Part shown: one piece after another, positions 15,958 to 43,472 of the stretch
Layout: every line of letters starts with the position of its first letter
Position numbering within the stretch: position 1 is the stretch's first letter
Program-made: the position numbers and the translations under genes
The notes under the pieces: generated by a model
What the model saw: the letters and a program-made list of their open reading frames with translations, nothing else
The model's database searches: none
Told to the model about the DNA's origin: nothing
NCBI GenBank assembly: GCA_018662325.1
Contig: JABJGM010000012.1
Span: forward strand, 1-64,000
Source of the DNA: a bacterium
GTDB lineage: Bacteria; Patescibacteriota; Gracilibacteria; UBA1369; GCA-2718715
Direction: 5' to 3'
DNA: 64,000 nt

Positions 15958-16380
15958 TTAGTAGAAAATAATATTTTGAGTGTTAATTTCAATAATTGCG
16001 TGATATCCAGCATCCTTTATTATACTTTGTATTTCAAATCTTTTGTCTTCGTCCGAATTTACTATTCTGAATACTTTACTTTCTGGATTTAATTCTTGAA
16101 TCTCTAAGTCTAATGATAGTCTTTCTTGAAGAATGTTTTGGACTTTTTCTTGTGGAGAATCTTCTGATTTTGTATTGATACAATTAATAATTTGTTCTCG
16201 ACTATCAGTAATTGTTCTGTAGCAAATTGCATCTAGTCCAAAGTTAGCTGTATTTGGTTTTGGTAAATAATCATTTCTAGGAACTTCTTTTGGTATGTAT
16301 CTTGGTCCAAATGTTGGTACGCATCCTTGTATTAAGCTTGTTGCTAAAATCAATGAAGGAATTGAGTTTTTAATTTTCAT
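15958..16380 (-). CDS. small lipoprotein of unknown function
   Basis: MKIKNSIPSLILATSLIQGC signal/lipobox; internal Met preferred over track start. Confidence 0.6.
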   Translation of the reverse strand: MKIKNSIPSLILATSLIQGCVPTFGPRYIPKEVPRNDYLPKPNTANFGLDAICYRTITDSREQIINCINTKSEDSPQEKVQNILQERLSLDLEIQELNPESKVFRIVNSDEDKRFEIQSIIKDAGYHAIIEINTQNIIFY

Positions 16381-16390
16381 TTTAAATAAG

Positions 16391-16981
16391 TTATTTTTTA
16401 GTTGCAATTATTTGTTTTTCAGTCAGGTTTACATTAAATCCATTACTTTGAAAGAGGTTGCTTGTTTGAGCTTTTTCAAGTGGATTAAGATTGAAATGAT
16501 TGCAAACTATACCACGAACAAAAAAACCTGAAAAATCAGCAGTTGTACATTCAATATGTTCTGATAAATTTTGGTTCTCTAAATCTGCATAGATTGATAT
16601 TAAATCTGTGTTTAGTTCGGAGTTTTCCCCTAGAGTAAATTCAATTTGACCATTTTCTACCTTTGCCCCCTTGATTTCGACTCCTCTAATAATATTTCTT
16701 ACACAGTTGTTTATGTTTTGGATTGGTATATTGATTTGAGCTATATCCTGAATTAAATATCTTCTTTTTTGAATATATCTTGGGTCTGGTCTTTTATTTA
16801 ATAAATGATAATTAGTTACTGAATTAACCTCACAAGTTTTTTTTAGTTCAGTATCCAAGTTTTGTAAAACTCTTTGATTTGATATTTGTGGTCTGGAATC
16901 TGATGATTTTGCCATACTACCACATCCTTGTTGTGTAAGGCTTCCTATTAACATTCCAGCTGTCAGCAGAGTATTTTTCAT
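16391..16981 (-). CDS. small lipoprotein of unknown function
   Basis: MKNTLLTAGMLIGSLTQQGC signal/lipobox. Confidence 0.6.
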   Translation of the reverse strand: MKNTLLTAGMLIGSLTQQGCGSMAKSSDSRPQISNQRVLQNLDTELKKTCEVNSVTNYHLLNKRPDPRYIQKRRYLIQDIAQINIPIQNINNCVRNIIRGVEIKGAKVENGQIEFTLGENSELNTDLISIYADLENQNLSEHIECTTADFSGFFVRGIVCNHFNLNPLEKAQTSNLFQSNGFNVNLTEKQIIATKK

Positions 16982-16992
16982 TTTAGAATTTG

Positions 16993-17493
16993 TTATTTTA
17001 TAATTGTAATAATATTAGATTGGCGATCTATTTGCATAAAGACATTAAATTTTTTACATAATTTGTTGATTGTATCAATGGTACTAAATGTTTCTTTTGA
17101 TATTTCAGTAAGTTTAATTCTATATACGCTATCATTTCTAAAGTCTTTCTCGACATTAATTACTCCATTTAAGCCTTTAAATTTATTTGCTAATGTTTTA
17201 GTTATATTGTTTATATCGTTAATTGGAAAGCAAAATTCTTTGCCTTTAATTACTATGCATCTATTGTTGTTTGAGATTTCTTCAATTATGCATTCTACTG
17301 TATATGTTACAATTTTCATTCCTTCTTGCTTAGCTTGATTCCGGTTAGTTGGTATTGTGTTTAAATTTTCTAGTGTTTTTTTTCTTATACATTCACACCC
17401 TGTTAAACTTGCTACACCTAAAGCTGAGCTTACAATTATATTTGTAATGCTTTGTGGTATGTTTATTTTATTTATTTGTTTTTCTAATGTCAT
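16993..17493 (-). CDS. small lipoprotein of unknown function
   Basis: IIVSSALGVASLTGC lipobox. Confidence 0.6.
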   Translation of the reverse strand: MTLEKQINKINIPQSITNIIVSSALGVASLTGCECIRKKTLENLNTIPTNRNQAKQEGMKIVTYTVECIIEEISNNNRCIVIKGKEFCFPINDINNITKTLANKFKGLNGVINVEKDFRNDSVYRIKLTEISKETFSTIDTINKLCKKFNVFMQIDRQSNIITIIK

Positions 17494-17504
17494 GCTAGTT
17501 TTTG

Positions 17505-18089
17505 TTATTTGATTCCGATTAAAAAATCTTCTTTTATTTGAATTGTAAACTCTTTTCTTTCTAGAAATTCACTTAAATTATTAACTTCTTCAATTGTTAA
17601 ATTTGGAGTTATACTTATACAAATAACAATATTTGTATCTTCATCAAATTTACACTCAAATTTCTGTCTTAGGTTATTGCTAATTAAAAAACTATTTAGT
17701 TCTAGCTGGCTTTTTGTTCGTAATAAATCTTTTGGTGCAACGTATAGGTTAGTGCTTGGTACTATGTATTTTCTAGTATGGAATTGAAGTTTTTGCTTTG
17801 TTTTCGGAGTAAAATTATGTCTGAAAAACATGTTTTGATTTGTACCTATAGCCTTAAGATTATAGTAATCACCTAGATTTTGTGTACTTGTGTTTAATTG
17901 GAATTCAGTGTCTATATTTCTTGTAATTTGTCTTATACACTCTTGAGTTTTTAATTGATTTTCTCGGCATAAAAGATCAATATTTAAAGCAATTTCTACA
18001 TTTTGTGTAAATTTTGCAGCTCTTTGGCAACCAGATTCAAATATTGATCCTGCGACAAGTAAGCTCAAAGCTATTTTTGACTTTATCAT
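17505..18089 (-). CDS. small lipoprotein of unknown function
   Basis: MIKSKIALSLLVAGSIFESGC signal/lipobox. Confidence 0.6.
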   Translation of the reverse strand: MIKSKIALSLLVAGSIFESGCQRAAKFTQNVEIALNIDLLCRENQLKTQECIRQITRNIDTEFQLNTSTQNLGDYYNLKAIGTNQNMFFRHNFTPKTKQKLQFHTRKYIVPSTNLYVAPKDLLRTKSQLELNSFLISNNLRQKFECKFDEDTNIVICISITPNLTIEEVNNLSEFLERKEFTIQIKEDFLIGIK

Positions 18090-38502: not shown

Positions 38503-40728
38503 TTAGTAGAATTTTAGAACTTGTTTGTTTAATCGATTTATCAATGTTATTGCTTGAGCTCTATTTAATTTATCGGTAGGGGAGAATGTAGTTGGACTAG
38601 TTCCTTTTACAATTTCATTTTTTACTGCTTTTTTAAGGTTTTGCATATACCAAGCATCTTGAGGTACGTCTTTAAATTCGATTTCAAATTCATCTGCTTG
38701 AGAATTTTTAAGTGAGTCAAAACCTCTAGCTAATAAGGTTACAGCTTCCGCTCTTGAAAGGCTATCGTCTGGTCTTAGAGTATTTTTACCTGCATCACCT
38801 TTAACTAATCCGATTTCTTTAGCAACTTGAACATGGTAAAACCCTTTGTTTTGATAATTTTCAAAGTCTGAAAACATTTCTTCTTTTCCTATAATAACTA
38901 AAGTTTCAATATCTTCTTCTTGATCTTTTAATTGTTGTTCATGTTTTGTCTTAAGTTTAGAAATATCATCTTTAAATAATAGTTCTGTGATTAGCATTAT
39001 GAATTCTTTCCTTGATATGTCTTTATTTGGTTCGAAATTAGCTTTAAAAGTTTCTTCATTATATTGAGTTTCTAGAATTGCACTTATGAATATTTCCTTG
39101 TCTAATTCTTTAATTGGTTTTGAAAACCAATCTTCTTCTTTAATGTCACCATAAATTTCGTTTTCTAATGTTTGAGTAGGGGATATAAATCCAAGAAGTA
39201 GGTCTAGTGTAGTTTGTGGAATAATTAAATTAGTTTCTGAAACAATTTTGTTATCTATAAATTGAGCATCTCCACTTATTTTAATATCTTTGAAGAAACT
39301 CCCAAACATAATTGCAAGTGGATTAGCATTTTCTGTGTTTTCGCCTAAAAGATCAAGGTAAGGTTTTGTGTTGATTTCAAAATAGCTTAAACCAGAATTT
39401 CTTTCTGTTATTTCTTGACTTTGAATTTTATAATCTTTATTTGAGCTTATACTTATGTGAAGATTTCCATTTTCTTCATTTAAGTTCAGGTATGAAATTG
39501 AATCTTCTTCCGCTGAGTTGTTTTTGTCAGCTGGTATTAAAGTTATTGCAGTTGATGTATTGGAAAGATCGATGTCCGTTTCGTTTTCCTCTTCATTTGA
39601 AAGTGCTTTTAATACATCTTGGATACTGCCTTGTATTTCGTACGTATCTGTTTTTAAATCAATATTACTAGTTCTTTTAAATCCAAGTGTTTTTAATAGT
39701 TCTTTTATCTCTGGTCTTATTTCTTCTCTGGAACTTGCAGAATCTTTAAATATAAAGTTATAGTTCATTGATAAGTCATCGCTAATATCAATTATCATTG
39801 CAGAGTCTTTTTCAGTTATTAATTCGAGTAATTTTGAGTTTTCTGCAAAGTTATATAAGTTATTGTTGATTTTGATATTATTTTTTATGTCTTTACAGTC
39901 TTGTTCTATTACATAGCAAAATTCACTAACCATTTTAGTTCTTCTTGATTCTAGTTTCTTATTTATATCCTTTTTAAAACCTTTGTTCTCATAAAAAGCT
40001 ATTGATTTAGAATTTATAAATTGTTCAAAGTTTAAATTCGAATTTTTAGCTTCTATTGCATCAATTAACTCTTGGTTTTCAATTTGAATAGACAATTCTA
40101 AACCAAAGTTGGAATCTTTATTTGTTAATTTGATTTCAAATGGATTATTTTCAAAAGCTACATTAGCTTTTACCATTACATCTTTCTCTAATGAAAAATC
40201 TGTATCTAAAATATTTCTATTAAGGGGTTTTTTATGAATATAAATAGCCTCATCTTCAATCGAAATTTGGTATCCTTCAAAGTCTTGGTTTGAGGTAATT
40301 CTACAATTTTCGTTGATTGTGTCTGAACAAACATCATCAAAAAACGTGATATTTTTTGCTTTTAGATAATCAAAAATTTTTCCGTAATTTTCTTGTGTAG
40401 ATTTAATTTTTAAGGTTTGATCATTGTTAGAGTAAAATCCTTGAATTTGATTATTGTTAATACTTAAGAATTTACTTAAAAGTGTTTTTTCTTCTTTAGG
40501 TAATTTATTAAGTAATTTATTTAAAAAGTGAGAATCGTTGATTTGAAATTCAATAGTGGAATTTATAATCATTTCAGAATCTATTTGTGTTGATGAATCT
40601 ACAACTTCATTAAGAATATTTGCCTGTGTTATATCTGTTTCAAAACTTTCTTCAAATGTTTGAGCCATTCCTACTTGATTGAATAGCATTGTACATAGAA
40701 CAAATGTACTTAATAATAATTTTTTCAT
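38503..40728 (-). CDS. secreted S-layer homology (SLH) domain protein
   Basis: Signal peptide MKKLLLSTFVLCTMLFNQVGMA; C-terminal SLH repeats (LRPDDSLSRAEAVTLLAR, FSPTDKLNRAQAITLINR). Confidence 0.85.
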   Translation of the reverse strand: MKKLLLSTFVLCTMLFNQVGMAQTFEESFETDITQANILNEVVDSSTQIDSEMIINSTIEFQINDSHFLNKLLNKLPKEEKTLLSKFLSINNNQIQGFYSNNDQTLKIKSTQENYGKIFDYLKAKNITFFDDVCSDTINENCRITSNQDFEGYQISIEDEAIYIHKKPLNRNILDTDFSLEKDVMVKANVAFENNPFEIKLTNKDSNFGLELSIQIENQELIDAIEAKNSNLNFEQFINSKSIAFYENKGFKKDINKKLESRRTKMVSEFCYVIEQDCKDIKNNIKINNNLYNFAENSKLLELITEKDSAMIIDISDDLSMNYNFIFKDSASSREEIRPEIKELLKTLGFKRTSNIDLKTDTYEIQGSIQDVLKALSNEEENETDIDLSNTSTAITLIPADKNNSAEEDSISYLNLNEENGNLHISISSNKDYKIQSQEITERNSGLSYFEINTKPYLDLLGENTENANPLAIMFGSFFKDIKISGDAQFIDNKIVSETNLIIPQTTLDLLLGFISPTQTLENEIYGDIKEEDWFSKPIKELDKEIFISAILETQYNEETFKANFEPNKDISRKEFIMLITELLFKDDISKLKTKHEQQLKDQEEDIETLVIIGKEEMFSDFENYQNKGFYHVQVAKEIGLVKGDAGKNTLRPDDSLSRAEAVTLLARGFDSLKNSQADEFEIEFKDVPQDAWYMQNLKKAVKNEIVKGTSPTTFSPTDKLNRAQAITLINRLNKQVLKFY

Positions 40729-40801
40729 TTATAAATTTGGTTATTTATCTTAACCATAGTTTACTATTTGTAATATGTTTGTAAATATTAAAAAGAGTGC
40801 T

Positions 40802-41581
40802 TTATTTTTTAAGTAATTCTATGACTTTTTTATGTAGATCTTTTGAACTTGAAGCGATAATTTTTGGGTTAAATAAGTCTATATCTTGATTGTCAGGTGT
40901 ACTAACTGTAGCGCCAGCTTCTTTGGTAATTAGTATTCCGGCTGCTACATCCCAAGGTTGATCACAGCATGAATAGACTAAATGAGTTTTACCAAGAGCA
41001 AAATGTGCAAATGAAGTTACTGCACTATTGATGCTATATACATACTTAAATTCTTTTCTAATTTTTTCTAGGTTTTTAAAATCATATTCGTCTAAATATG
41101 ATTCTATGTTCATTAAACTATTACCTGTCGTATGAACATGATTGATGTTAAGTTTTGAATTATTACAATAACTACCTTGATTTTCAATTGCATGAAGTAC
41201 TTGATTTTCAAATGGTAAATAAATGCAACCAAGTATAACATTGTTATTTTGAACTAGTGCAATTTGGTTTGCAAAATTTTTAATTCCACTTCTAAAATTC
41301 GTTGTTCCATCTAATGGATCTACGATCCAGCAGTATTCGTCTTCTTTTATTTCTTGATTGTGACTATTGATATCTTCTTCTGAAATAATTTTAAATTCAT
41401 CGGAAATTTTTTTAAGTTGACTCAAGATAATGTTTTCACATTCTTTATCTATTTTTGTCACATCTTGAGTTTGGCTTTTTAATTCGTATTTGTATCCATC
41501 TTCGCAAAAATTATTCTTAGCATGATCACCTGCTTTTTTTGAAATTTCGATTACTTTTTTAATTATCTTATTTTTGTTCAT
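40802..41581 (-). CDS. inositol monophosphatase family phosphatase
   Basis: IISEED, WIVDPLDGTTNF, QPWDVAAGILITKEAGA motifs. Confidence 0.9.
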   Translation of the reverse strand: MNKNKIIKKVIEISKKAGDHAKNNFCEDGYKYELKSQTQDVTKIDKECENIILSQLKKISDEFKIISEEDINSHNQEIKEDEYCWIVDPLDGTTNFRSGIKNFANQIALVQNNNVILGCIYLPFENQVLHAIENQGSYCNNSKLNINHVHTTGNSLMNIESYLDEYDFKNLEKIRKEFKYVYSINSAVTSFAHFALGKTHLVYSCCDQPWDVAAGILITKEAGATVSTPDNQDIDLFNPKIIASSSKDLHKKVIELLKK

Positions 41582-42326
41582 GTATTGTGATTAATCTTTT
41601 AGAATTTTTTTTATCAAATATATCTTTTTGATCGTATGAACCAAATGTATTTGTTCTTTTCCATTTTGATCCAAGTAGTTTATCTATTTCTTTCGGTTCG
41701 ATAAATTGTACTATTTCTGGGTCGTAGATTTTATGTTCTTCATCTGTATTTAAATTTTTAAAATTAAAGGTATAGGAACCAGTTCTTAAATAATTTTCAT
41801 ACATAGTATATTGCCTTGTGGTTCTTATTTCGTAGTTTTTAAAAATTTCAACACTTTTACTTAAATCACTTTCCGGGTAATTATAAAAGTTACTTTGATC
41901 TATTATTATTGTTTTTTCTATATTTTCAGATAACCATTTATAAAGTTCTTTTCTTTTTTTTAAATCATTTACGTAAGTAATAGTTGTCCACATACTAATT
42001 GCTGCATCAAAACTTTTGTCTGCTAATACCTGTGGTATATTTTCAAAATATCCAACTTGAGTTTTTACATTCGAGATATTTTGTTCTGAAATCTTTTTCT
42101 TTGCATTTCTTATTAATTCTTCTGATCCATCGTAAATAGTAAATTCTACTTTTTTCATTTCTTTAGATAGGGGAATAGTGTGTACGCCGTCAGCACCACC
42201 TATATCAAGAAGGCTATCTATATTATTGTTTAATATTGATTTTAGAAATTGCACTTCTTCGTTAGATTTCTTTTCATGGTTTTCTCTCCACAAATTGAAA
42301 AGTTCTGGATTCTTATATATTTCCAT
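41568..42326 (-). CDS. class I SAM-dependent methyltransferase
   Basis: LLDIGGADGVHTIPLS and DAAISMWTTITYV; internal Met start chosen (track start 42362). Confidence 0.82.
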   Translation of the reverse strand: MEIYKNPELFNLWRENHEKKSNEEVQFLKSILNNNIDSLLDIGGADGVHTIPLSKEMKKVEFTIYDGSEELIRNAKKKISEQNISNVKTQVGYFENIPQVLADKSFDAAISMWTTITYVNDLKKRKELYKWLSENIEKTIIIDQSNFYNYPESDLSKSVEIFKNYEIRTTRQYTMYENYLRTGSYTFNFKNLNTDEEHKIYDPEIVQFIEPKEIDKLLGSKWKRTNTFGSYDQKDIFDKKNSKRLITIHEQK

Positions 42327-43353
42327 TTTCTTTTTGTTTAATAAATTCTTGAAATTCTTCAATTACAATTTGAGTTTCTTTTTGTGTTCCAATTGATATT
42401 CTGATTTTGTCTTTTAAGTTTTGATCATTCTCCGGAAAAAATTTGATTGCAATTTTGTCTTTAAGATAATTTTTTAGTTCTTGTTTTCTTTGGTATGGTA
42501 TTTTTATTAATATAAAGTTAGTGTTTGATTTATATGCATTCCAATTTTTTTGTTGGCTGAAAAAATCATATAAAGCTTGCTTATCTGAATTTATTTTTTC
42601 TTGAATATCTTTGTAGAAATTTTGGTGATTTAAGCAGCTAATAATTGTCTTTGAATTAAAGCTACTATATCCAAGGTATGTATTGTAGTCAGGGAATTTA
42701 GTGTCTAAACTGCTATTACTTATAGCGTAACCTATTCTAATTCCAGCTATTGCATATAGTTTAGAGAATGTTCTAACGCTAATTAAATTATCATGTTTTT
42801 CAACTAAATCTGATAGGAATTGATTGTTATAACTATCATCGAAACCATGATAGGCTTCATCTAAGAGTACTAAATCTACATCATTACATAACTCTAATGT
42901 TTCCGACAATCTACTTTGTTCGATAGAGTTTCCTGTAGGATTAAGTGGTGTAGTAATTACAACCATATTATAATTTCCATTCTTAATTTTAGATTGTAAA
43001 TCTTCTACATTGAAATTGTATGAGCTTTGCTCTTCATCGATTTTATAAGTATCTACATTTTTAGTATGAGCCTTTATTAATTTCAAATAATAACTCCATG
43101 TTATATTTGAAATTAGTACTTTTGATTCTTTATTTAACGTATTAAATATTTGCATTAAAATTTTCTCTGCACCATAGTCTAGATAAATGGAATTTTGACT
43201 AGAGACATTAAATCTTTTTCTAATGTTATCGATAGCTTTTTTATTCAGTTCTTTTGCTCCATCATAGGATGAACATTCTTCTTGAGATAAATTAATGTTA
43301 CTTATTTTTTCTGGAAGTTTATATCTCAATTCGTTTTGACTTAATTTAATCAT
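42313..43353 (-). CDS. PLP-dependent aminotransferase, HisC-like
   Basis: TTPLNPTGNSIE, LLDEAYHGF, RTFSKLYAIAGIRIGYA; start at MIKLSQNEL chosen from promoter position. Confidence 0.85.
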   Translation of the reverse strand: MIKLSQNELRYKLPEKISNINLSQEECSSYDGAKELNKKAIDNIRKRFNVSSQNSIYLDYGAEKILMQIFNTLNKESKVLISNITWSYYLKLIKAHTKNVDTYKIDEEQSSYNFNVEDLQSKIKNGNYNMVVITTPLNPTGNSIEQSRLSETLELCNDVDLVLLDEAYHGFDDSYNNQFLSDLVEKHDNLISVRTFSKLYAIAGIRIGYAISNSSLDTKFPDYNTYLGYSSFNSKTIISCLNHQNFYKDIQEKINSDKQALYDFFSQQKNWNAYKSNTNFILIKIPYQRKQELKNYLKDKIAIKFFPENDQNLKDKIRISIGTQKETQIVIEEFQEFIKQKENGNI

Positions 43354-43375
43354 TTTTTTGTTATTTAGTGAATTC

Positions 43376-43404
43376 AAAATAACAATATATTGAATGTTTG
43401 TCAA
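43376..43404 (-). promoter_or_regulatory. sigma70-like promoter of the HisC-like operon
   Basis: Minus strand TTGACA-17 bp-TATTTT with TG extension. Confidence 0.55.
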
Positions 43405-43449: not shown

Positions 43450-43472
43450 AAACTGCCATTTCTGGCAGTTTA
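43450..43472 (-). terminator. terminator after tuf
   Basis: aaactgccatttctggcagttt hairpin with A-rich flank. Confidence 0.75.

Follow-up and report, generated by a model that had tools for sequence, protein, structure and literature searches.

Three overlapping genes on the minus strand (positions 40802–43404) of the window, the 64,000-nucleotide stretch of DNA analysed here, encode a HisC-superfamily PLP-dependent enzyme, a class I SAM-dependent methyltransferase and an inositol-monophosphatase (IMPase)-family phosphatase, and this cassette is probably one functional unit acting on a phosphorylated amino compound. The initial annotation had described the same three overlapping genes, and both the open reading frames and the Pfam matches agree with it. 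A more specific reading, in which the three genes constitute a short metabolic pathway to an N-methylated amino alcohol, is tentative, the substrates being suggested by protein family and genomic context.

Gene organisation and transcription unit

The PLP enzyme gene (42313..43353; 346 aa, ATG start; PF00155, E 1.2e-36) is followed by the methyltransferase gene (41568..42326; 252 aa, GSMT/DesVI-like fold; PF13649, E 2e-11) and the phosphatase gene (40802..41581; 259 aa; PF00459, E 4.9e-49). The starts of the first two were moved to the ATG codons at 43353 and 42326 because relatives begin there in the alignment; the TTG extension of the PLP enzyme to 43404 is thus unlikely, and the methyltransferase likely starts at its ATG rather than at the mechanically listed TTG. 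With these starts, both gene junctions overlap by 14 nt (42313–42326 and 41568–41581).

The three genes form their own transcription unit in this Patescibacteria (Peregrinibacteria-type) genome (0.98 Mb, 95.8% complete). An intrinsic terminator behind tuf, consisting of a hairpin and a T run (43450..43471, minus strand), insulates the cassette, and a promoter-like site on the same strand (43376..43404; TTGACA-17-TATTTT, 10/12 matches, with TG preceding the second hexamer) lies shortly 5' of ATG 43353, a kind of site that the AT-rich DNA here contains no more often than expected by chance. Directly 3' of the cassette lies a minus-strand gene for a secreted SLH-domain protein (38503..40728; PF00395, E 2e-15), linked to it by association only, and then rpsJ of the S10 operon. 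No other biosynthetic genes adjoin the cassette, as had been noted before. Together, the cassette and the SLH gene (38503–43404) split the rpoBC-rpsL-rpsG-fusA-tuf block from the S10 operon, and they constitute an AT-rich island with 26.6% and 27.3% GC, respectively, compared with 34–37% for tuf, fusA and rpoBC.

Elsewhere in the window (15958–18089, minus strand), four consecutive small genes have lipoprotein-signal-like starts (a hydrophobic stretch followed by Gly-Cys) and are possibly a tandem family.

Conservation and distribution of the cassette

A genome-neighbourhood search had been proposed for the triad, and it revealed all three genes, in unchanged order, in Candidatus Peregrinibacteria bin120o (G003; 79% complete), which belongs to a different genus of the same family, with overlaps of 14 nt and 8 nt and with 31% (PLP enzyme), 39–40% (methyltransferase) and 31% (IMPase) identity to the window proteins. 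The surroundings differ: in G003 an SLH gene lies upstream and there are no ribosomal genes, so that the SLH proteins stand on opposite sides of the two triads, and they have only the SLH repeat in common. The methyltransferase was found in 2 of 353 genomes of the class (the window genome and G003) and in one of 380 genomes sampled across the phylum (the window genome); the cassette is therefore rare, which probably reflects mobility or frequent loss. When the methyltransferase alignment was used for a scan across species, a single additional locus was recovered, from a Woesearchaeota archaeon (L076). The corresponding scan with the PLP enzyme, covering 84,980 species genomes, gave no match, because its single-sequence query yields weak peptide patterns. 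No relatives of the bacterial methyltransferases were present in plasmid and phage collections, and none in viral contigs, and thus no phage link is indicated; a PHROGs search likewise gave no match. A PADLOC match to mad2 was set aside, as it spans the generic SAM fold only.

Three housekeeping enzymes without a joint function (a general aminotransferase, a SuhB/FBPase-like phosphatase and a methyltransferase) could also lie side by side, and the genome content is compatible with this: the cassette PLP enzyme is the single PF00155 (Aminotran_1_2) match of the window genome, the phosphatase is its sole IMPase match at E<=1e-6, and IMPase genes are widespread within the order (37/59 genomes). 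However, the order and overlapping starts are kept in G003 in another context at about 31–40% identity, and the PLP partner of the methyltransferase is retained across domains, which makes an unconnected set quite improbable. Judged from these alignments and neighbourhoods, the triad arrangement is more than chance, since order and overlap recur in G003 and the methyltransferase–PLP pairing recurs in two Woesearchaeota-group genomes.

Relationship of the PLP enzyme and phosphatase to histidine biosynthesis

All fold type I catalytic residues (Asn157, Asp184, Tyr187, Lys214, Arg222 and Arg335) are kept in the window PLP enzyme, and the phosphatase, which scores 167.7 bits against PF00459 (gathering threshold 27), has complete DPLDGT and WDVAAG metal motifs. 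The cassette thus shares both superfamilies and the catalytic residues with the HisC and HisN pair, and a relic or salvage version of the histidine pathway, with HisC and a HisN-type histidinol phosphatase, is the reading that the top curated models would favour: hisC (TIGR01141) for the PLP enzyme, and his_9_HisN (TIGR02067) among the top two for the phosphatase. The scores fall far under the cut-offs, however (188.5 bits against 276.55 and 111 bits against 275.15, respectively). The histidine pathway was judged by a search for histidinol dehydrogenase (HisD) in three genomes; it was not found in the window genome, G003 or the Woesearchaeota genome G423, and was present in 13 of 14 control genomes.

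Phylogenetic analysis included HisC proteins of E. coli, C. jejuni, Medicago and archaeal histidine operons; Cj1436 and Cj1437 of C. jejuni, which are HisC-like PLP enzymes, were left out. The window and G003 enzymes formed a separate clade (support 100/99), and their placement inside the HisC rows was rejected (AU p 0.02). Within this clade the PLP-stacking Tyr110 is replaced by Trp, and at the position of Arg322, a conserved phosphate-contact residue of HisC, the window enzyme has Lys and the G003 enzyme Arg. The structural model of the PLP enzyme was poor (AF2, pLDDT 62) and was not used. The cassette also differs from the HisC and HisN pair in its additional methyltransferase. The histidine-remnant reading is nearly refuted and has only a very slight chance of being correct, in keeping with the earlier view that the genes are not a histidine pathway.

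The window enzyme also scored below the cut-off of the CobD model TIGR01140 (115.3 bits against 290.55), and the N-terminal HGG motif of CobD is absent from the window and G003 enzymes.

Characteristics of the methyltransferase

Pfam assigned the methyltransferase a Methyltransf_25-type domain (PF13649/PF13847, 2e-11), and its AF2 model (pLDDT 79.5) has antiparallel strands after the core sheet. The best Foldseek matches with a known role were glycine/sarcosine N-methyltransferase, CypM, CalS10, DesVI and TylM1, at 8–14% identity, and the C-methyltransferases SeMT and PsmD were also among the fold matches. A profile built from four sequences recovered the same N-methyltransferase set together with plant-type phosphomethylethanolamine methyltransferases; generic UbiE/UbiG models also match. 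Although glycine/sarcosine N-methyltransferase and the N,N-dimethyltransferases DesVI and TylM1 are the closest characterised folds and profiles, the window protein gave no match at 0.01 to the NCBIfam glycine/sarcosine model NF051855 (cut-off 350 bits), which three of its relatives match weakly, far under that cut-off. As the fold and profile matches are mostly small-amine N-methyltransferases, our best guess, resting on the modelled fold, is that the enzyme would act on the nitrogen of a small amine, although it could methylate O or C.

Archaeal counterparts

At the Woesearchaeota locus, a PLP enzyme, a HAD phosphatase and the methyltransferase are encoded in that order, all overlapping. In G927, another genome from that archaeal phylum, the genes for the PLP enzyme and the methyltransferase overlap at a contig end, the contig beginning inside the PLP gene. 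The four PLP-linked methyltransferases form one clade (support 99/97.9), and a PLP gene adjoins all four loci of this clade compared with none of the 14 loci of the next-nearest archaeal methyltransferases; this distribution would arise by chance once in 3060 if the loci were independent, a figure to be taken as a guide only, since the loci are in part related to one another and contig ends truncate some of them.

The CobD-type HGG motif is present in the archaeal PLP enzymes, which group with CobD and PDB 6oux (support 93/97), a structure deposited as a threonine phosphate decarboxylase-like enzyme, which we take to be SMUL_1544. A single clade of archaeal and bacterial PLP enzymes was rejected (AU p 0.0004). 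By sequence, the archaeal enzyme is assigned to a CobD/phosphoserine-decarboxylase-like subfamily, unlike its bacterial counterpart: the window enzyme lacks HGG, groups elsewhere and has no cobamide genes nearby. The phosphatases also belong to different superfamilies (IMPase in the bacterial loci, HAD in the Woesearchaeota locus). Different PLP and phosphatase families have thus been recruited around one methyltransferase family, and it is these differing parts beside the same methyltransferase that give the strongest sign of a phosphorylated amino intermediate.

A pair of PLP enzyme and methyltransferase could alternatively serve keto-acid C-methylation, giving a beta-methyl amino acid with the phosphatase as an accessory. 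Aminotransferase and SAM methyltransferase pairs of this logic are known, beta-methylarginine and 3-methylglutamate being made in this way, and the presence of SeMT and PsmD among the fold matches fits. Against this, a phosphatase from one or other of two superfamilies occurs in every checkable locus, the archaeal PLP enzyme groups with decarboxylases and not with amino-acid aminotransferases, and most characterised matches of the methyltransferase are N-methyltransferases, so that C-methylation of this kind seems rather improbable.

Several other arrangements were encountered around related PLP enzymes. Streptomyces plasmid proteins matched by the archaeal PLP query occur without the methyltransferase or phosphatase and are not this system. 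These plasmids (L077:6389–8967, L078:6389–8970 and L080:5389–7952) encode a GNAT/FeeM-like domain fused to an HGG-type PLP enzyme, annotated, probably wrongly, as histidinol-phosphate transaminase; the next gene in all three is annotated as phosphatidate cytidylyltransferase, with CTP_transf_1 found in the one tested. In the archaeal genome G933 (L160:5270–7853, plus strand), an NTP_transferase domain is fused to a CobD/SMUL_1544-like PLP enzyme and followed by a CDP-alcohol phosphatidyltransferase, apparently a stand-alone pathway to a CDP-amino-alcohol phospholipid. Two archaeal genomes encode, adjoining a CobD-like PLP gene and divergent from it, proteins of about 285 aa (L076:5294–6154 and L159:8350–9207) with no Pfam match, 28% mutual identity and an N-terminus resembling a winged-helix regulator.

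Proposed pathway and comparison with known systems

In the bacterium, the PLP enzyme would most likely transaminate dihydroxyacetone phosphate (DHAP) to serinol phosphate, as its family suggests; triose-phosphate isomerase is present in the window genome, so DHAP should be available. The CobD-like archaeal enzyme, again going by its family, would more likely decarboxylate L-phosphoserine to ethanolamine phosphate. The IMPase-family enzyme, or the HAD enzyme in the archaeon, may then strip the phosphate, before or after methylation, an assignment based on family and strengthened by the exchange of one phosphatase type for another; esters resembling glycerol phosphate are common IMPase substrates. 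Finally, the fold of the methyltransferase suggests that it could place one to three methyl groups on the amine, yielding an N-methylated serinol or a choline-like compound. The bacterial route would accordingly run from DHAP through serinol phosphate and serinol to N-methylated serinol, and the archaeal route from phosphoserine through ethanolamine phosphate and ethanolamine to N-methylated ethanolamine; the product might be a solute or a cell-surface decoration. Several points weaken this proposal: amino acids without a phosphate are also substrates for transamination by HisC-superfamily members, the window enzyme has Lys in place of Arg322 of HisC, and the methyltransferase, with its UbiE/UbiG matches, could act on O or C.

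The chemistry has precedent in Campylobacter jejuni, where Cj1437 converts DHAP to serinol phosphate, Cj1436 converts phosphoserine to ethanolamine phosphate, and the HAD phosphatase Cj1435 acts on amides of these two products (PMC11800397). Like the cassette, this serinol/ethanolamine capsule module (Cj1435, Cj1436, Cj1437 and Cj1438) combines HisC-like PLP enzymes with a later phosphatase; the cassette, however, has no adjoining amide ligase or glycosyltransferase, uses an IMPase (HAD only in the archaeal version) and has an additional methyltransferase. The rhizobitoxine pathway also leads from DHAP through serinol phosphate to serinol, by way of the N-terminal DHAP aminotransferase of RtxA (PMC3222319). 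This likeness is one of chemistry, drawn by description and not by sequence, and unlike the cassette enzyme RtxA is a two-domain protein of another pathway with no methyltransferase or IMPase partner.

The suggestion that the genes make or modify a phosphorylated amino compound is borne out insofar as the triad is conserved and has an archaeal counterpart with another phosphatase; substrate and product are assigned by inference. Two outcomes had been named as counting against it, a complete histidine pathway elsewhere and no conserved co-occurrence in relatives; neither the HisD search nor the neighbourhood comparison, with its two carriers among 353 class genomes, gave such a result. The narrower proposal of a methylated amino-alcohol headgroup fits the nearest methyltransferase relatives, mostly small-amine N-methyltransferases, but a lipid link was not found in the window genome. 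No product-using gene (CDP-alcohol transferase or amide ligase) adjoins the triad; CDP-alcohol transferase matches numbered one in the window genome, four in G423 and one in G927, and none was found in G003 (79% complete).

The SLH neighbours are a hint towards the cell surface, and the substrate of the methyltransferase could be an aminosugar or some other precursor of surface glycans, the cassette decorating the cell surface together with the nearby SLH proteins. In both bacterial genomes the triad has an SLH-domain gene as a neighbour, and aminosugar N,N-dimethyltransferases are among the near fold and profile matches. Nucleotide-sugar aminotransferases are as a rule of the DegT/DnrJ type and not HisC-type, however, no glycosyltransferase or nucleotide-sugar gene adjoins, and the SLH proteins, on different sides of the triads, share only their repeat; we therefore regard a glycan role as unlikely.

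Implications for ultra-small bacteria and archaea

All parts of the cassette belong to known kinds, and the amino-alcohol pathway proposed above would be a variant of amino-alcohol phosphate metabolism; a description of the triad was not found in the literature searched. The widest form of the proposal is doubtful: that a minimal pathway came together on more than one occasion among ultra-small bacteria and archaea, with interchangeable PLP and phosphatase parts around one methyltransferase family, and that it converts a central metabolite to N-methylated serinol or choline, so that CPR and DPANN cells would make a cationic solute or surface group of their own. A partner set is now available for an uncharacterised methyltransferase family, and also for HisC-resembling PLP enzymes outside the histidine pathway. 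Patescibacteria and DPANN archaea with genomes of less than 1.5 Mb are regarded as lacking most biosynthetic capacity and as relying on hosts for compounds; a conserved cassette making its own methylated amine would, if true, be a concrete exception to this host-supply view.
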